Assembly: GCF_008808095.1 (NCBI RefSeq)
Contig: NZ_CP023396.1
Span: 868,001-932,000, forward strand
Length of the DNA stretch: 64,000 nt
Direction of reading: 5' to 3'
Source: Pseudoalteromonas ruthenica
GTDB lineage: Bacteria; Pseudomonadota; Gammaproteobacteria; Enterobacterales; Alteromonadaceae
Shown here: positions 5,939 to 14,058 of the stretch, one piece after another
How the letters are laid out: each line of letters starts with the position of its first letter
Position numbering within the stretch: position 1 is the stretch's first letter
Program-made: the position numbers and the translations under genes
The notes under the pieces: model-generated
Told to the model about the DNA's origin: nothing
Seen by the model: the letters and a program-made list of their open reading frames with translations, nothing else
The model's database searches: none

Positions 5939-6217
5939 GTGAACAAAAAGCAACTAATTGATGCCATGCATGGGCGCAGTGGATTAACTAAGCAACAATC
6001 TGCGGCAGCGTTAACATCGCTCGTTGAGGCGATAACGCGGTCTTTACACGAAGGGGATGCGGTATTTATACCTAAGTTTGGTAACTTTTCGCTTAGCTAT
6101 CATCCGGCGAAACGCGGTCGTAACCCGCAAACAGGGGAGGAAATAGAAATAGCAGGGCAAAATAAAGTGGCCTTTAAATGCGCCAAGGCATTAAAAGACC
6201 ACATACAACCAGGCTAA
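5939..6217 (+). CDS. HU-family nucleoid protein
   Basis: Histone-like DNA-binding protein of 92 residues. The frame is open from 5879, but homology begins at the GTG at 5939 ([20 protein letters not shown]), which restores the normal HU length of about 90. Visible features are the helical dimerisation body, [49 protein letters not shown], with the flexible beta-arm carrying RGRNPQTGE. It is expected to bend DNA non-specifically as a dimer. Main HU genes usually begin with MNK and carry FG(T/S)F, and the more divergent middle suggests a paralog rather than hupA or hupB. Its stop codon overlaps that of the convergent trpA. Confidence 0.85.
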
Positions 6218-7020
6218 CCCTTGGTCGCCTCTTTCATAGCGATAGTAAACACTTTCAGCTCTTCACACATGGCCTCTGGGTGGTCCAAGTTGGCGGCAAT
6301 AATTTTTACCACGGCGGAGCCACTGATAGCCCCCGCAGCACCACTGCTAAGGGCTTGGCTCACATCATCCGGAGTGCTGATACCAAAGCCAAGCAACGCG
6401 GGTGCGGCATGATATTCTTTTAGCTTGGCAATCATCGAATCCGCCGGCATTTGCGCTTTGGTTTCGGTGCCCGTGACGCCAGCTCGGGAGAGCAAGTAGG
6501 TGTAACCGCGCCCGTAAGAGGCGCATTGTCGAAGGGTGTCATCATCGGCATTGGGGGTGGCGATAAAAATCGGCTCGATGGCGGTTTCAGTCGCCGCTTG
6601 ACGGAACATTTTCGACTCATGTAAGGGCACATCAGCGACCAAGATTGAGTCTACCCCGGCGTCTTTGGCTTGTTGGTAAAACTGCTGCGGTCCACGGGCT
6701 AGTACCAAGTTAGAATACAGTAGTAAACCAATTGGAATATCTGCGTTATAGGCGCGAATTTCGCGAATGATGTCAAAGCAATCACCGGTGCTAATGTTCG
6801 CCTCTAAGGCACGAATATTGGCGGCCTGAATCACCGGGCCATCGGCAATTGGGTCGGAGTAGGGGATGCCCAACTCTAATGCGTCGGCACCGCCATCAAT
6901 CAGGCTTTTAATAATGGCAATACTTTGTGCTTTACCCGGATCGCCCAGGGTCACAAATGGCACAAACGCGCCTTCATTGTGCTCGGCGAGGTTGGCGAAG
7001 GTGGTGGCATAACGACTCAT
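6214..7020 (-). CDS. trpA: Tryptophan synthase alpha chain
   Basis: Cleaves indole-3-glycerol phosphate to indole and glyceraldehyde 3-phosphate and passes indole to TrpB. It has 268 residues, the standard length. The catalytic acids are in place: Glu49 in [18 protein letters not shown] and Asp60 in the same stretch. The phosphate-binding end is visible as [10 protein letters not shown] and GAISGSAVV. Its ATG overlaps the trpB stop (ATGA), with an AGGAG ribosome-binding site inside trpB, so the two subunits are translationally coupled. It is the last gene of the trp operon and converges on the HU gene with a four-base stop-codon overlap. Confidence 0.97.
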
Positions 7021-8204
7021 GATATATCTCCTTTAGCAGCAAGCACTTGATGCACATGGGCCAAGTCTTTGTCACCTCGGCCGCTGAGGTTTACAACAAT
7101 AATACACTCTTCACTTTGTTGCTCCGCATACTGGAGGGCATAGGCCAGTGCGTGGCTCGACTCAAGTGCCGGTATAATGCCCTCATGGCGTGCCAGCGCC
7201 TTAAATGCATCGAGCGCCTCATCATCGGTGATACCTACATATTGGGCGCGGCCGCTTTCATGCAGATGCGCGTGCTGAGGCCCCACTGCAGGGTAGTCTA
7301 AGCCTGCCGATACTGAGTAAGACTCTTCAATTTGGCCTTGCTCAGTTTGCATGATGTAGGTGTAAGCGCCATGCAAAATTCCTTTGCTACCACGACATAA
7401 GGTCGCGCCATGTTCACCGCTATCAAGGCCCTTACCTGCGGGTTCAACGCCGATCAGCTTAACGCTCGGCTCATCAATGAAATCGGTAAACATGCCAATG
7501 GCGTTAGAGCCGCCGCCGACACAAGCAATGACCGCATCGGGTAAACGCCCTTCGGTTGCCAGAACCTGTTGTTTGGCTTCTTCACCAATCATTTTTTGGA
7601 ACTCGCGCACCACCGTTGGGAAAGGGTGTGGTCCGGCAGCGGTGCCGAGCAGGTAGTGCGCCGTTTTATAATTCGCTGACCAGTCACGCAGCGCTTCGTT
7701 CACGGCATCTTTCAAGGTACCAGAGCCGGCGGTAACAGGTATCACTTCAGCGCCCATCAAGCGCATACGAAATACATTAGGCTGCTGGCGCTCGACGTCT
7801 TTAGCGCCCATATAAATGCGGCACTTTAAACCCAACAGCGCACAGGCTAAAGCCGTAGCCACACCGTGCTGACCAGCGCCGGTCTCGGCGATGACTTCCT
7901 CTTTGCCCATACGTTTGGTGAGCAAGGCCTGGCCCAACACTTGGTTGGTTTTATGGGCGCCACCGTGAAGTAAATCCTCACGCTTAAGGTACAGTTTGAC
8001 CTTGGGGTTTTTCACTAAGTTACGGGTTAACGTTAAGGGTGTCGGACGGCCGGCATATTCATTGAGCAAAGAGTGAAACTCTTTTTCAAAAAGCGGGTCG
8101 TGTTGTGATTTATTAAACTCGGCTTCTAGCTGTTTAAGCGCCGGCACCAAAAGCTCCGGCACAAACATGCCGCCAAAATCGCCAAAATAGGCTGAATTAC
8201 TCAT
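7017..8204 (-). CDS. trpB: Tryptophan synthase beta chain
   Basis: PLP enzyme that joins indole and serine to give tryptophan. I place the start at 8204, where GAGGTGGTTATG gives a strong ribosome-binding site and the protein (395 residues) begins [19 protein letters not shown] as in TrpB1. The frame continues upstream into the end of trpC. The PLP lysine is Lys85 in GGAHKTNQ, the phosphate cup is GGGSNAIG, and the end has [10 protein letters not shown]. It belongs to the ordinary TrpB1 class, coupled to trpA by an ATGA overlap. Confidence 0.97.
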
Positions 8205-8211
8205 AACCACC

Positions 8212-9576
8212 TCAATAATTCCGAATTGCCGCAAAGGCAGCATTAATTTTCTGTGTACATTTTTTACCGGGTGCGGTTTCTACGCCGGAATTAATATCCA
8301 GCCCGGTTGCGTTGTGTGCTAAAGCGTCAGCAATATTGCCAGGGGTCAAGCCGCCTGCCAGCATGAAAGGGGACTCAGCCTGCGCCAGCAGTTGCCAGTT
8401 AAATTGCTCACCGGTGCCACCTTTCGCTTGTTTGCTATACGTGTCATAGAGAATACGGTCGACGCCCGCGAGCGCTTTAGGCAGCTGCGCAGCCACCGCT
8501 TGTGCTTTCCAAATTTGGCACGATAACGGCAGCGCTTGGCGTAACGACTGAATATAATGCTCATCCTCCACACCATGCAGCTGCACGGCGGCCAGTTTTA
8601 ATCGCGTGGCATAGTCGCTGACTTGCGCAACCGGTGCGTCAACGAAAACCCCCACATAATGCAGCGGCGCACTATCGACAATGGCCTTGGCGCAATCAAT
8701 GTCAACATAGCGGGGTGAGCCTGGATAGAAAATCAGGCCACCATAATAGGCACCAGCTTGGTATACCGCTTGTGCATCCTGTGAGCGCGTAAGACCACAG
8801 ACTTTATGCTCGCCAAAAATTAAGGCGCGACAAGCGCTTTCAATATCAGCCTGGGCCATAATAGAACTGCCAACCAGAAACCCGTCACACAAGGGGCTTA
8901 AGCGCTGCACGTCTTTATGGCTGTAAATGCCCGACTCAGAAATCACCACTTTATCACTGGGGATCAATTGGCGAAGCCGTTCAGTGGTCGCCAAATCGGT
9001 CGATAAGTCGCGTAAGTCACGGTTATTGATACCGATGATCTCGGCGTTCAACGCCAGCGCCCGAGTTACTTCCTGTTCATTGCTTACCTCAGTTAATACA
9101 TCCATATTCAGTGACTTAGCCAGTTTACTGAGCGCCGTATAGGTGTCGTCATCAAGCACTGAAAGCATCAACAAAATAGCATCACCGCCGTGTAAACGAG
9201 CCAAATAAACTTGATAAGGGTCGATAAAGAAATCTTTGCAAATCAGTGGCTGGCTGACTTTCTGTCGTACCTGGGTTAAGTAGTCAAAATGGCCTTGAAA
9301 GTACTTTTCGTCGGTCAGCACACTAATACAGCTGGCGTACTTTTTATAGACGGCAGTGATTTCATCCAGGTTAAAGACATCACGAATAAGCCCTTTTGAG
9401 GGCGATGCCTTTTTACACTCCAAAATAAAGCTCGTTGGGCCCTGTTTCAGGGCACGATAAAAATCACGGTCGCTCGCAGTGATGTCGTCAATAAAGCTCG
9501 CTAACGGTTGCGTGCGTTGACGCTGCGCTACCTCGTGGCGTTTATCGGCAACAATTTTTTCTAATACATTAGCCAT
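8212..9576 (-). CDS. trpC: Bifunctional indole-3-glycerol-phosphate synthase / phosphoribosylanthranilate isomerase
   Basis: Two-domain fusion of 454 residues, as in E. coli TrpC(F). The first half is indole-3-glycerol-phosphate synthase ([32 protein letters not shown]). The second half, from about residue 256, is phosphoribosylanthranilate isomerase ([38 protein letters not shown]). Together they catalyse two successive steps in tryptophan synthesis. The frame begins at 9600, but the ATG at 9576 has GAGG before it and matches the family N-terminus ([16 protein letters not shown]). It overlaps trpD by eight bases and ends seven bases before trpB. Confidence 0.96.
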
Positions 9577-10573
9577 GACTGACCTCAATGATGGTATCAA
9601 GCGTGCGTTGTGCTTGCTGGGATTGTAAAACGTCTTGAACCTGCGCGCTGGCCTCTTTGAAATTAGCCGCTTTACCGGTCAATACTAATAACGCTGCGAC
9701 ATTGATCACCACCGCACTGGTGTGCGCCGGCTCTCCTTGGCCGCTTAAAATCGCCCGCGTGGCATTGGCGTTGTAGTCTGGCCCTTGACCACTGAGTTGC
9801 GCAAGTGAATAGTTTGCAAGTCCGAAGTCACTGGGGTTTAAGGTGTACTCATGCAGTTGCCCTTGGTTGAGTTCAACCACTTGAGTCTCACCGTGTAAGG
9901 CGATTTCATCGGTGCCGGCACCATGGACAACCATCGCCCGTTTGCACCCTAAGGTCTGCAGGGTCTTTGCCATCGGTAAGCATAAGGCAGGGTCGTACAC
10001 CCCGAGTAATTGATAATCCGGTGCTGCCGGGTTAGCAAGCGGCCCGAGAATATTAAATAGGGTTCGTGTTTTAAGGGTGGTACGCACCGCCATCGCGTGC
10101 TTGACCCCTTGGTGGTAAAGCGGAGCGAACAAAAACGCAAAGCCGGTTTGCTCTAGCATCGCGGCGGCTTGCTCTGGGCTCATATCGATATTGATACCCA
10201 GGCTTTGTAACAAATCAGACGACCCTGAGTTACTCGATACACTGCGGTTACCATGTTTAACCATATTAATTCCACAGGCGGCGGCTACAAGCGCTGCCGT
10301 GGTGCTGATATTAATAGTGTTGGCACCATCACCACCGGTGCCACAGGCATCGACCAAGTGTTGCGCCGAGGTGTTAAAGGGCAGGGCATTGGCGCGCATA
10401 GCGGCGGCGGCCCCGGCAATCTCGTCGGCGCATTCACCCTTAATTTTCAGCGCGGTAAGCATGGCCGACAGGGTGATATCATCAATATCGCCGCGCATTA
10501 CGCTATCGAACAGCTGCTGTGACTCTGCAAAGGTTAAGTCCTGCTGCTGATACAGCTTATTCATTACATCCAT
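9569..10573 (-). CDS. trpD: Anthranilate phosphoribosyltransferase
   Basis: Transfers the phosphoribosyl group from PRPP to anthranilate. It has 334 residues. The PRPP-binding motif CGTGGDG is at about 77-83, the anthranilate/PRPP loop KHGNRSVSSNSGSSD at about 106-120, and LGPLANPA and VVHGAGTDEI follow as in the family. The start at 10573 has an AGGGG site in the preceding trpG end, while a second Met three codons on is less well placed. It is a separate gene here, not fused to trpG as in enterobacteria. It lies three bases after trpG. Confidence 0.97.
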   Translation of the reverse strand: MDVMNKLYQQQDLTFAESQQLFDSVMRGDIDDITLSAMLTALKIKGECADEIAGAAAAMRANALPFNTSAQHLVDACGTGGDGANTINISTTAALVAAACGINMVKHGNRSVSSNSGSSDLLQSLGINIDMSPEQAAAMLEQTGFAFLFAPLYHQGVKHAMAVRTTLKTRTLFNILGPLANPAAPDYQLLGVYDPALCLPMAKTLQTLGCKRAMVVHGAGTDEIALHGETQVVELNQGQLHEYTLNPSDFGLANYSLAQLSGQGPDYNANATRAILSGQGEPAHTSAVVINVAALLVLTGKAANFKEASAQVQDVLQSQQAQRTLDTIIEVSHG

Positions 10574-10576
10574 GAG

Positions 10577-11167
10577 TTACCCCTGTGCTGTTAAATATTC
10601 AAGGCTTTGCTGCAATAGTTGCGCGCCATGAGGAGTTAGAATCGACTCTGGGTGAAACTGATAGCCAAGCACCTTATCTTGATGCTGACACACAGCCATC
10701 GGCATGCCCTGATAATGCGCGATAATCGCTAATTGCTCGCTTACCTTGGTTGCCACTAAGGAATGGTAACGGGCCACCACGAGGTGCTCGCCAAAACCAT
10801 TAAAAGCGGGGTGAGGCGTTAAGCTAATGGTGGATGATTTACCATGCACCGTTTGCTGGGCATGGCCAATTTCACCCCCATACGCCTGCGTTAATGCTTG
10901 TTGCCCGAGACAAATCCCAAGCATCGGGAAACGTCCCCGACACAGGTCAATGAGCGCCATTAAACATCCCGCGCTATCGGGTGCGCCGGGCCCGGGGGAC
11001 AGCACGAGCACCACCGGCTGGGTTTCTGCGCACATGCGCTCGAATATGACTTCCGCCGCCACGGTATTGCGATACACCACCAACTCTTGGCGCAACTGCG
11101 CAAATTCATCCACCAAGTTATAACTGAAAGAGTCTTCGTTATCTAAGAAGTAAATCTTATAATTCAT
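10577..11167 (-). CDS. trpG: Anthranilate synthase component II (glutamine amidotransferase)
   Basis: Supplies ammonia from glutamine to TrpE for anthranilate synthesis. It is a class I glutamine amidotransferase of 196 residues with the full catalytic triad: Cys86 in GICLGQQA, and His172 and Glu174 in YQFHPESIL. The oxyanion region LSPGPGAPDSAG is present. It is a stand-alone subunit whose ATG overlaps the trpE stop (ATGA), so it is translationally coupled to its partner. The operon position, not sequence alone, favours TrpG over PabA. Confidence 0.96.
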   Translation of the reverse strand: MNYKIYFLDNEDSFSYNLVDEFAQLRQELVVYRNTVAAEVIFERMCAETQPVVLVLSPGPGAPDSAGCLMALIDLCRGRFPMLGICLGQQALTQAYGGEIGHAQQTVHGKSSTISLTPHPAFNGFGEHLVVARYHSLVATKVSEQLAIIAHYQGMPMAVCQHQDKVLGYQFHPESILTPHGAQLLQQSLEYLTAQG

Positions 11168-12741
11168 GCGTTTGTTGCTCCTTGGCTGGTGGCGATAGCG
11201 CGCAGTACGGCGCCGGCTTTTGCGCGAGTCTCATCGGCTTCACTTTGCGGGTCTGAGTCATAAACCACCCCAGCGCCGGCTTGCACATGGGCCAGACCAT
11301 CTTTGACAAAAGCACTGCGGATAACAATGCAAGAGTCCATGGCTCCCTCACCCGTGAGATAGCCGACGGCACCGCCATAGCTGCCTCGGCGTTTCTTTTC
11401 TACCTCACGAATTAAGCGTGCAGCGCTGACCTTGGGGGCGCCAACCAAAGTGCCCATATTCATACAGGCCGAGTAAGCGTGCAGTGCATCAAGGTCTTCT
11501 TTTAACTGTCCTACCACCCGCGAAACAAGGTGCATGACATGGGAGTATCTATCGACTTTGAGTAGCTCTTTAACGTGACGCGTGCCGGCCTGGCTGATAC
11601 GAGCGACGTCATTACGCGCTAAATCGACGAGCATAATGTGCTCGGCGCGCTCTTTGCCATCATTGCGCAAATCAAGCTCGATGCGCGAATCGAGGTCTAA
11701 ATTTAAACGTCCATCGGCATGCTTCCCACGCGGGCGCGTGCCCGCTATCGGATACACCTCAACTTGATTGCTCTGGGCACAGTATTTCAAGGCCGATTCA
11801 GGAGAAGCGCCGAATAGCGTAAAATCTTGGTCGCGCAAATAGAACATATAGGGGCTGGGGTTTTGTGTTTTCAGCTGTGCATAGGCCGCTAATGGCTGTT
11901 GGCAAGGCAGAGTAAAGGTTCGTGAAGGCACCACCTGAAAAATATCACCGTCGATAATATGTTGCTTTAGTTGGCTAACCTGCGCCTTGAAGTCTTCGTC
12001 ACTGATATCGACACTGGCTTCTACAGGCTGCGCCGTTGCCTGTGGCGCCGGTAGTACCTCCACGTCATCACAGAGGGTGTTTAAGCGTTCGACTTTTTGT
12101 CCTACCTCAAAGCAATTGGCATGCACTTGCGGGCCATTGAACACGTTACCGATAATTTCAGTGCTCTGTGCTTGGTGATCAACCACCACTAGGGTTTCAG
12201 CAAGGTAAAAAACATAGTCTGGGCAGCTGTTATCTTTTGCCTCGACGGCGGGAAGTTGCTCAACATTCGCGACCATGTCGTAGCCCATTACGCCGCCTAA
12301 GAAAATGGCAAACGGATTGTCAGAGTTGTCGCTGATGCGATTAATGCACTGACGTAGGGTATCGAAGGCGTTGGCCGCTTTGAGCTTAGCATGCTCATCT
12401 AAATCGCTGGCCACGGGCGGGTAGCTGATTTGCAAGGTGGTGTTATCGAGTGTGGTGGTGCCGGCATCGATGTGGCGCTGCAAATAAGGCAGCAGTTGCG
12501 CACCGTTGTTTGATAGCGCGACGACACTGACCTCGCTGCCGTTACACTCTATGCGCAATGCGCTATCAACTAATACGATACTTTTTAAATTGGCTTTGGA
12601 GTCTATTTCTGCGGACTCCAGTAACAGGCTATTATCGGTATCGAGCTTGGCGAATAGGCTCAGCGCAGAGGGGATATAGTCTCGCCGCTGGCTAATGCTG
12701 GTCACCTGACCGGGCTCGGTCGAGATGTGGCTAAAAATCAT
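11164..12741 (-). CDS. trpE: Anthranilate synthase component I
   Basis: Converts chorismate to anthranilate, the first committed step of tryptophan synthesis. It has 525 residues. The N-terminal feedback region holds LLLES at 39-43, the motif that binds inhibiting tryptophan in TrpE proteins. The chorismate-binding C-terminal half shows PVxGTRPRG-like PIAGTRPRGKHADG, DLARNDVARIS, HLVSRVVG, GAPKVSAARLI and the final GAGVVYDSDPQSE. A good ribosome-binding site (TGAGGAC) precedes the ATG. It is the first structural gene after the double attenuator leader and overlaps trpG by four bases. Confidence 0.97.
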   Translation of the reverse strand: MIFSHISTEPGQVTSISQRRDYIPSALSLFAKLDTDNSLLLESAEIDSKANLKSIVLVDSALRIECNGSEVSVVALSNNGAQLLPYLQRHIDAGTTTLDNTTLQISYPPVASDLDEHAKLKAANAFDTLRQCINRISDNSDNPFAIFLGGVMGYDMVANVEQLPAVEAKDNSCPDYVFYLAETLVVVDHQAQSTEIIGNVFNGPQVHANCFEVGQKVERLNTLCDDVEVLPAPQATAQPVEASVDISDEDFKAQVSQLKQHIIDGDIFQVVPSRTFTLPCQQPLAAYAQLKTQNPSPYMFYLRDQDFTLFGASPESALKYCAQSNQVEVYPIAGTRPRGKHADGRLNLDLDSRIELDLRNDGKERAEHIMLVDLARNDVARISQAGTRHVKELLKVDRYSHVMHLVSRVVGQLKEDLDALHAYSACMNMGTLVGAPKVSAARLIREVEKKRRGSYGGAVGYLTGEGAMDSCIVIRSAFVKDGLAHVQAGAGVVYDSDPQSEADETRAKAGAVLRAIATSQGATNA

Positions 12742-12810: not shown

Positions 12811-12843
12811 ACAAAAAACCCGCATACTTCGAAAAGCTGCGGG
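12811..12843 (-). terminator. Second (proximal) trp attenuator terminator
   Basis: On the minus strand CCCGCA and TGCGGG (12838-12843 and 12819-12824) form a stem that is followed by six U. It lies between leader peptide 2 and trpE. A GCGGGT segment right after leader peptide 2 can pair with the left arm instead, which would be the antiterminator. Confidence 0.85.
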
Positions 12844-12878
12844 TTGCAATTATGCTCAGCCGTAACAAGGCCCACCCG

Positions 12879-12929
12879 CTATCTCGAGTGCCACCACCAA
12901 ATTACTGTTACGAACTGCGTTAAAATCAT
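12879..12929 (-). CDS. trpL: trp leader peptide 2
   Basis: Sixteen codons, MILTQFVTVIWWWHSR, with three consecutive Trp codons followed by HS. The ATG at 12927-12929 has a good ribosome-binding site (AAAGGTAAGTAAC before ATG). In family logic a ribosome stalled at the TGG codons when Trp-tRNA is scarce frees the following RNA to form an antiterminator. It is too short for ordinary gene finders. It shares TGGTGGTGGCACTCG and a following GCGGGTGG with leader peptide 1, which lies 143 bases upstream, so the two units look like a duplication. Confidence 0.88.
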   Translation of the reverse strand: MILTQFVTVIWWWHSR

Positions 12930-12952
12930 GTTACTTACCTTTGTTTAGATAC

Positions 12953-12979
12953 AAAAAAAACCCGCTTGCTGCGGGTTTT
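12953..12979 (-). terminator. First (distal) trp attenuator terminator
   Basis: On the minus strand a compact GC stem (CCCGC / GCGGG, loop AGCAA) is followed by eight U. It lies between leader peptide 1 and leader peptide 2. The GCGGGT just after leader peptide 1 can pair with the ACCCGC arm as an alternative. Confidence 0.88.
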
Positions 12980-13024
12980 GTTAATCAGGCAGTACTCACT
13001 GCGCACGACTAATTCCACCCGCGA

Positions 13025-13075
13025 TTACGAGTGCCACCACCATGTCATATGTGTGTTGTTAGCCTGTGACTGCAT
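13025..13075 (-). CDS. trpL: trp leader peptide 1
   Basis: Sixteen codons, MQSQANNTHMTWWWHS, ending directly after the WWWHS motif. The ATG at 13073-13075 has AGGA eleven bases before it. A second in-frame ATG at 13046-13048 would give only seven residues. It is the first of two Trp-rich leaders between the promoter and trpE. As in known trp leaders, three adjacent Trp codons lie just before a pair of alternative RNA structures. It is absent from ordinary ORF calls because of its size. Confidence 0.87.
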   Translation of the reverse strand: MQSQANNTHMTWWWHS

Positions 13076-13101
13076 GAGCTTGATAATCCTAATTAATTGA
13101 T

Positions 13102-13137
13102 GGCTGTTAGTTAAACCTAGCTGAGCATCAGTGTCAA
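13102..13137 (-). promoter_or_regulatory. trp operon promoter with possible TrpR operator
   Basis: On the minus strand TTGACA (13132-13137), a 17-base spacer and TTAACT (13109-13114) form the same -35/-10 pair as the E. coli trp promoter. CTAG and CTAA flank the -10 box, a partial match to the TrpR operator half-sites, but the spacing differs from E. coli, so TrpR control is only possible. Transcription would begin near 13102. Confidence 0.8.
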
Positions 13138-13224: not shown

Positions 13225-14058
13225 GTGCTTAAGTACGATTTACATTGCCACAGTAATTTTTCCGACGGGACCTTAAGTGTTGATGAGTTGGTTTCAAGAG
13301 CCGCCGACAAGGGAGTTGATGTGCTCGCGCTCACCGATCACGATACCATTGCCGGTATCGCTGCAGCGCGCGCCGCGATAGCTGCGCAGGCGCTCGACCT
13401 AGAATTAGTCGCCGGAGTAGAAATATCCACGCGCTGGCACAGCTTTGAAATTCATATTGTTGGCTTGCAGGTTGACACTCAGGCTCCGGAACTGACAGCG
13501 TTATTGGCTGAACAACAGCAAAAGCGCAGTGAACGAGCGGTAAAAATAGGCGAACGTCTGCAGAAGGCAGGGTTTGAAAACACCTATGAACAAGCCTGTG
13601 AGCTGGCCGCTGAGGCGCAAGTAACGCGTGCCCATTTTGCCCGGGTGTTAATGGCGCAAGGCGCAGCGAAGACCTTTCAAGGCATCTTCAAAAAATACCT
13701 CAGTCGCGGCAACACCGGGTATGTACCAAGTACATGGTGTGACATGCACACCGCCATTAAGGCCATTGCCGCAGCGGGTGGGCAAAGTGTGCTCGCGCAT
13801 CCGGCTCGATACAAAATGTCGAATAAGTGGCTGCGTAAGTTAGTAAACGAATTCGCCACGCTCGGTGGCGATGCAATGGAAGTGGCCCAAACCCAACAAG
13901 CGCCCTGTGAAAGGCAGTTTTTAGGGCAGCTTGCGCGTGAGCATGGGCTGCTGTGCTCGCAAGGTTCTGATTTCCATTTTCCTTTACCTTACATAGAATT
14001 AGGAAAGAACCTATACTTACCTAAAGACTGTGAAGGCGTATGGCAGCGTTGGCAGTAG
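13225..14058 (+). CDS. rnm: PHP-domain RNase AM / 5'-3' nuclease
   Basis: A 277-residue metal-dependent phosphoesterase of the PHP family, E. coli YciV (TrpH, now Rnm), which matures the 5' ends of rRNAs and acts on 3',5'-bisphosphonucleotides. The metal ligands are visible: DLHCHSNFSDG at 5-15, LTDHD, GVEIST, VLAHP and GSDFHFP. The start is GTG at 13225 with AGAGGG before it. It is divergent from the trp operon, a conserved neighbourhood in gammaproteobacteria, and is followed by yciO. Confidence 0.92.
   Translation: MLKYDLHCHSNFSDGTLSVDELVSRAADKGVDVLALTDHDTIAGIAAARAAIAAQALDLELVAGVEISTRWHSFEIHIVGLQVDTQAPELTALLAEQQQKRSERAVKIGERLQKAGFENTYEQACELAAEAQVTRAHFARVLMAQGAAKTFQGIFKKYLSRGNTGYVPSTWCDMHTAIKAIAAAGGQSVLAHPARYKMSNKWLRKLVNEFATLGGDAMEVAQTQQAPCERQFLGQLAREHGLLCSQGSDFHFPLPYIELGKNLYLPKDCEGVWQRWQ

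Follow-up and report, generated by a model that had tools for sequence, protein, structure and literature searches.

A probable tandem of ribosome-mediated trp attenuators upstream of trpE in Pseudoalteromonas

The trp attenuator is a textbook device and is usually described as one unit per operon. The E. coli type, located upstream of trpE, consists of a short ORF with adjacent Trp codons, four RNA segments (1–4) and an intrinsic terminator. Repetition of a sensing element upstream of a biosynthetic gene is known from tandem T-boxes. In the accessible text of Lee and Groisman 2012 (PMC3641672), nutrient-biosynthesis genes are described as normally controlled by a single attenuator, and the tandem riboswitches of B. 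clausii metE are named. The same text describes the Salmonella mgtCBR leader, whose tandem attenuators answer to ATP in one case and to proline in the other, and whose stem-loops, according to its authors, do not resemble intrinsic terminators. The rimP leader carries a second terminator upstream in several Gammaproteobacteria, as reported in the available part of Naville and Gautheret 2010 (PMC2965389). A doubled trp attenuator appeared in none of the titles or abstracts among the open-access matches listed. A 2004 survey of proteobacterial attenuators by Vitreschak and others is cited in PMC1262725. The accessible portions of PMC2965389 and PMC8632094 mention neither a tandem trp leader nor Pseudoalteromonas, while PMC1183508 is, from its accessible portion, a modelling study.

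The trpE leader region of the window

The whole stretch of DNA analysed, 64,000 nucleotides of Pseudoalteromonas ruthenica, is referred to here as the window. An original prediction, made from the letters of the window, had placed two complete leader-peptide/terminator units between one promoter-like site and trpE. Direct reading of the sequence confirmed both units at the predicted positions, each with three adjacent Trp codons, GCGGGTGG and a terminator with a CCCGC arm. The features of the region were as follows.

13109..13137, minus strand: promoter-like site found by sequence reading, −35 TTGACA (13137–13132), 17 nt spacer, −10 TTAACT (13114–13109)
13075–13025, minus strand: leader peptide 1, MQSQANNTHMTWWWHS, three adjacent Trp codons, the first at 13042
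13022–13015, minus strand: segment 2 of unit 1, GCGGGTGG, whose alternative partners are segment 1 (CACTCG, 13033–13028) and segment 3
12953..12979, minus strand: intrinsic terminator of unit 1 with U tract, hairpin 12979–12957 (−12.6 kcal/mol), arms segment 3 AAAACCCGC (12979–12971) and segment 4 GCGGGTTTT (12965–12957)
12929–12879, minus strand: leader peptide 2, MILTQFVTVIWWWHSR, three adjacent Trp codons, the first at 12899
12879–12872, minus strand: segment 2 of unit 2, GCGGGTGG, with segment 1 CACTCG at 12890–12885
12813..12847, minus strand: intrinsic terminator of unit 2 with U tract, hairpin 12847–12815 (−14.6 kcal/mol), arms segment 3 AACCCGC (12845–12839) and segment 4 GCGGGTTTT (12823–12815)
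11164..12741, minus strand: trpE, first gene of the operon (NCBIfam anthranilate synthase component 1, E 5.7e-236)
10577–11167, minus strand: trpG, by family match
9569–10573, minus strand: trpD, by family match
8212–9600, minus strand: trpCF fusion, by family match
7017–8243, minus strand: trpB, by family match
6214–7020, minus strand: trpA-like ORF, named by position and sequence alone
13225–14058, plus strand: RNase RNM gene, divergent neighbour of the trp leader, by family match

The neighbouring RNase RNM gene is YciV-like. Both ORFs with Trp codons precede trp synthesis genes, as expected of an attenuator, and in each unit of the window GCGGGTGG is followed by a CCCGC/GCGGG hairpin. The ribosome-binding site proposed for each leader could be found in the form of modest SD-like purines: AGGA at leader 1, AAGG at leader 2. 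The 28-nt cores of the two units were identical at 25 of 28 positions and lay 143 nt apart, as had been predicted.

The two leaders account for two of the six TGGTGGTGG sites counted over the two strands of the 64-kb window combined. When the complete genome was searched with a covariance model derived from the unit 1 sequences of 17 genus loci, among them that of the window, the two leader units were the sole matches at E ≤ 1e-3, with 66.2 and 60.7 bits; the next-best match scored 31.4 bits (E 0.0011). No Rfam family, T-box included, matched anywhere in the window at its gathering cut-off. At a relaxed threshold, RF00513 (Trp_leader) scored 25.8 and 18.2 bits for the two units against a cut-off of 41 bits. 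The units would work like members of RF00513 but fall short of the score for curated membership.

Distribution of the two units in Pseudoalteromonas and related taxa

The search for the doubled unit in relatives covered the trpE upstream regions of 99 Pseudoalteromonas genomes, the window's included, drawn evenly from a larger group. Two complete units were present in 94 of the 99 by strict rules, and a second leader with a terminator, in any state, in 96. G082 (L104) and G060 (L111), which were dropped by the strict script, carry a second Trp leader and terminator with an altered segment 2. This segment is short of part of the G run in both (GCGGAAG and AGCGGACGG), which may weaken the second antiterminator of these two genomes. 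In G003 (L045), G017 (L055) and G034 (L041), a single WWW leader is followed by two terminators approximately 32 nt apart, an arrangement that would fit loss of the second leader and retention of its terminator.

The closest named TrpE loci, at 82–83% identity, belonged to Pseudoalteromonas sp. T1lg88, T1lg48 and T1lg75 (L005–L007), and all three alike showed two TGGTGGTGG runs upstream of trpE; T1lg48 (L006) is already counted among the 99 as G052, and the other two records probably are as well.

The Trp run of unit 1 consisted of three adjacent codons in every genus genome (99/99), with 21–23 nt from the first Trp codon to segment 2. In the 94 second units, the run had three codons in 83, four in 8, two in 2 and a broken W-G-W in one (G006); the spacing to segment 2 was 21 nt in 85 of the 94 (range 18–24). 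The two Trp runs of these 94 genomes were 128–199 nt apart (median 135). The N-terminal parts of the peptides differ among species, and the Trp codons and RNA segments are conserved. An SD match shorter than three contiguous bases was observed for 24 of 99 first leaders and 10 of 94 second leaders. Unit 2 has diverged in the majority of the genus genomes, frequently with WWW followed by R or C and L, with GCGGGACGG and with CCCC-type arms. Ungapped comparison revealed 12–20 of 28 like positions between the cores of units 1 and 2 in 90 of 94 genomes; cores alike at 25–28 positions were seen solely in the window and three close relatives (4/94).

The original prediction had described the units as arranged as after a duplication. 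The recency that this wording implies does not hold, given a genus-wide tandem with mostly dissimilar cores. Since the tandem is genus-wide, the core likeness in the window was more likely retained or homogenised between the units than produced by a fresh duplication. If the tandem did arise by duplication, that event probably dates back to the origin of the genus or earlier.

Two further features of the genus loci could be noted. In L033 (G055), unit 2 is separated from trpE by approximately 265 nt more than in near relatives, which looks like an insertion. Many of the 45 rows of alignment A4, described below, have a motif like GTYGTGTCTAAC in the antiterminator loop that separates segments 2 and 3; that it could be a polymerase pause signal is a guess.

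Outside the genus, 66 loci from 51 other genera of the family were surveyed. A single unit was the commonest form (39/51 genera), two units were called in 2 of the 51 and none in 10. The two tandem-bearing genera were g22 (L114) and g29 (L120, L125), called by the leader and hairpin detector alone. Among the 10 uncalled genera, g51 and g11 have a visible Trp leader for which no hairpin was called. For several others, as exemplified by covariance-model matches in G111 and G124, the attenuator is located over 1 kb upstream, at or past the end of the sequence retrieved, and these genera therefore count as unread rather than negative. Nine loci of other family genera (L147, L151, L154, L156, L160, L165, L167, L178 and L179) had no attenuator call immediately ahead of trpE and seem to have approximately 1.1–1.4 kb between the trp attenuator and trpE, a stretch that is probably a gene. 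At least two covariance-model matches were found in a number of other family genomes, for which only the best places were listed; these were excluded from the tandem counts.

No tandem could be confirmed in 44 loci from 20 other families of the order, of which 6 had no called unit and three (L213, L218 and L220) had a unit at the edge of the stretch. Two detector-called doubles in f20 (L197 and L202) were rejected because their upstream "leader" was, by eye, a membrane-protein-like ORF. A class-wide pattern search of 369 genomes matched in 71, and an adjacent, non-overlapping pair was seen, on inspection of the listing by eye, in the window's genome only. The pattern is insensitive: both units were recovered from just 53 of the 99 genus loci, and at least one unit from 18 of the 66 loci of the family and 20 of the 46 of the order, so that tandems may occur elsewhere in the class.

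A first TrpE tree grouped g1, g22 and g29 with support of 96/85. In a second tree, with 20 additional genera and without 21 of the 32 genus-1 rows, four near-duplicate rows and 4 of the 8 outgroup families, g29 was unplaced and g1 and g22 were joined at 88/79, with a bootstrap that had not settled. From these TrpE sequences, a single origin of the tandem for g1, g22 and g29 is plausible. The unit 2 terminators of two g29 congeners differ on both sides of the stem, with CCCGC/GCGGG in one and CCCAC/GTGGG in the other, and the g29 segment 2, GTGGG, can pair with both the CCCGC and the CCCAC arm if G-U pairs are allowed.

Folding, terminator strength and transcriptional context

The original prediction called for terminator and antiterminator pairings in the folded leader RNA, and both could be found in both units under a crude ribosome mask. 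A ribosome modelled as halted at the Trp codons before synthesis of segment 4 left segments 2 and 3 joined by at least 4 pairs in every unit 1 (99/99) and every unit 2 (94/94). With the ribosome placed at the stop codon, segments 3 and 4 paired, again in every case (99/99 and 94/94). In these masked folds, each unit thus has mutually exclusive 2:3 and 3:4 hairpins, the latter being the intrinsic terminator. When all segments were left free, the antiterminator was the minimum-energy fold in 11 of 99 unit 1s and in none of the 94 unit 2s. As it is so seldom the most stable fold, the antiterminator must win kinetically, by timing.

Antiterminator stability was compared with that of shuffled sequences in seven genomes, and z values ranged from −1.24 to −4.46 for unit 1 and from −0.70 to −2.72 for unit 2. 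In the window, none of 300 shuffles was as stable as the unit 1 antiterminator; the unit 2 antiterminator hairpin was not unusually stable, with 27 of 300 shuffles equal or better.

Covariation of the 2:3 helix was evaluated in alignments A4 (45 distinct unit 1 sequences), A5 and A6, all without the window's clade and the latter two also without two G065-like unit 2s. A5 showed no excess over shuffles, A4 had no pairs, and none of the three pairs in A6 covaried; the core pairs hardly vary. For the terminator, one of three tested pairs covaried in each unit, with 0 of 2000 shuffles as high in a test that ignores kinship. The covarying pair was paired in 32 of 45 distinct loops for unit 1 (shuffle mean 17.6) and in 33 of 43 for unit 2 (shuffle mean 21.9). 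No excess was found for the other two pairs of either unit: 316 and 368 of 2000 shuffles were as high in unit 1, and the unit 2 pairs had no variation that the shuffle can judge.

The terminator of unit 2 was stronger than that of unit 1 in 89 of 94 genomes and in 75 of 78 distinct pairs, taking isolated-hairpin energy as a proxy for termination efficiency. Subtracting the terminator energy from that of the antiterminator gave medians of −0.5 kcal/mol for unit 1 and +6.4 kcal/mol for unit 2, and unit 1 was the more antiterminator-favoured of the two in all 94 genomes. These modelled energies suggest a permissive first stage and a strict second stage.

The promoter context is also shared across the genus. 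A TTGACA-like −35 element with at most one mismatch, followed after a 17–18 nt spacer by a −10 element (TTTACT, TTAACT or TATAAT in the search), was present upstream of leader 1 in 99 of 99 genomes, a count made with no shuffle control; TTGACA with TTTACT occurred in 86 of the 99. A generic promoter scan of the window, which requires A at position 2 of the −10 element, returned no site there. The gap between hairpin 1 and leader 2 had a median of 28 nt, was below 45 nt in 68 of 94 genomes and reached at most 90 nt. So short a gap leaves little room for a second promoter between the units; such a promoter was considered and set aside for those 68 genomes, and it is possible in the other 26.

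The window's genome (G000) gave no match to TrpR (PF01371) in a search in which the E. coli control was matched. Partial matches at E ≤ 1e-3 were found in 8 of the 99 genus genomes, and the cut-off was reached by G091 alone (27.0 bits, model positions 36–71). The family sample had matches in 6 of 118 genomes, none at the cut-off, and the weak matches of genus and family were limited to model positions between 31 and 85. Judged from these profile matches, a convincing TrpR appears to be absent from both samples, and attenuation is probably the main Trp-specific transcriptional control in the lineage, where it may carry work done elsewhere by repression. Of the "trp-like promoter" named in the original prediction, the promoter-like site could be retained, while the implied control by TrpR could not, because no TrpR was found in the genome. 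Loss of TrpR was also considered as the specific cause of the doubling. It does not explain it, because the single-unit genera, which are most of those in the family sample, likewise lack a match at the cut-off.

A two-stage reading, its alternatives and known systems

The best reading of the locus, and the one originally proposed, is that two complete ribosome-mediated trp attenuators very probably operate in series in one leader RNA behind one promoter-like site. The analogy with the known switch is strong, and on that analogy the mechanism would proceed as follows. When Trp-tRNA is plentiful, the ribosome would reach the stop codon and cover segment 2, and the 3:4 terminator would end transcription. 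When Trp-tRNA is scarce, the ribosome would stall on WWW, segments 2 and 3 would pair, and polymerase would continue. We infer that both leaders are translated and respond to Trp. Since a transcript must pass both units, the total read-through would be approximately the product of the two. The units may have different thresholds, with unit 1 tuned for easier passage of polymerase and unit 2, with the stronger terminator in most species, acting more strictly. Jointly, they could confer lower basal expression and a wider or steeper response to Trp than one unit. We regard the locus as a genuine and conserved two-stage form of a known switch, probably of old origin.

The units might also be coupled instead of independent, so that passing the first checkpoint would help to open the second. 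Antitermination at unit 1 would free its segment 4 (GCGGGU), which could then pair with segment 3 of unit 2. For isolated duplexes of the window, this cross pair was estimated at −11.7 kcal/mol, and the 2:3 and 3:4 pairs of unit 2 itself at −11.3 and −11.5 kcal/mol. The medians over 94 genomes were −9.5 for the cross pair, −10.0 for 2:3 and −15.8 kcal/mol for 3:4. As the cross pair is mostly much weaker than unit 2's own 3:4 pair, coupling would be strongest in the window's clade. We consider coupling rather unlikely; if true, it would yield a cooperative, steeper Trp switch.

It is unlikely, and slightly more so, that one unit alone senses Trp and the other is a plain or vestigial terminator lowering basal transcription. 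The three genomes with one leader and two terminators indicate that a leaderless second terminator is viable, and the degraded segment 2 of unit 2 in G082 and G060 and the weakness of the unit 2 antiterminator against shuffles point the same way. However, the Trp codons, stop position and segment 2 spacing of leader 2 are conserved in 94 of 99 genomes, which is hard to explain without ribosome sensing. A very unlikely reading is that the second unit serves chiefly to release a trans-acting product, either a terminated leader RNA or a peptide, as reported for peTrpL, the trp leader peptide of Sinorhizobium. Two terminators would produce two short RNAs, and the accessible part of PMC7298713 reports a role beyond attenuation for the S. 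meliloti trp leader peptide. The variability of the peptide N-termini, set against the conserved Trp codons and RNA segments, fits sensing in cis instead. As for an assembly artefact or a private recent duplication in the window strain, the high core likeness of the window speaks in their favour, but the genus survey refutes both, and we give them practically no credence. Of the 99 genus genomes, 96 carry a second Trp leader with a terminator, which no assembly duplication would explain, most cores in the genus are far less alike, and the two Trp runs recur in the named Pseudoalteromonas records.

Two attenuators in series thus remain the preferred reading. A genus-wide tandem with a consistent difference in terminator strength provides a natural experiment on a second checkpoint for the same signal, from which the possible gains are a lower leak, a wider range or a steeper response.

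Compared with the E. coli-type attenuator (RF00513), the locus has the same kind of ORF, segments 1–4, intrinsic terminator and position at trpE; it differs in having two complete units in series, scores below the cut-off and no TrpR match. It shares with rimP two premature terminators in tandem, although rimP is not described, in the accessible text, as an amino-acid leader-peptide system. With mgtCBR, as far as the accessible text describes it, the common feature is a single leader RNA holding two leader ORFs and their attenuators, whereas here Trp should be the signal for both units and each has an intrinsic terminator. Tandem T-boxes and riboswitches sense tRNA or a ligand directly, in contrast to the translating ribosome here. 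The mechanism would be that of the textbook; a tandem for the same signal, kept across a genus, is new as far as the open-access titles and abstracts listed show.
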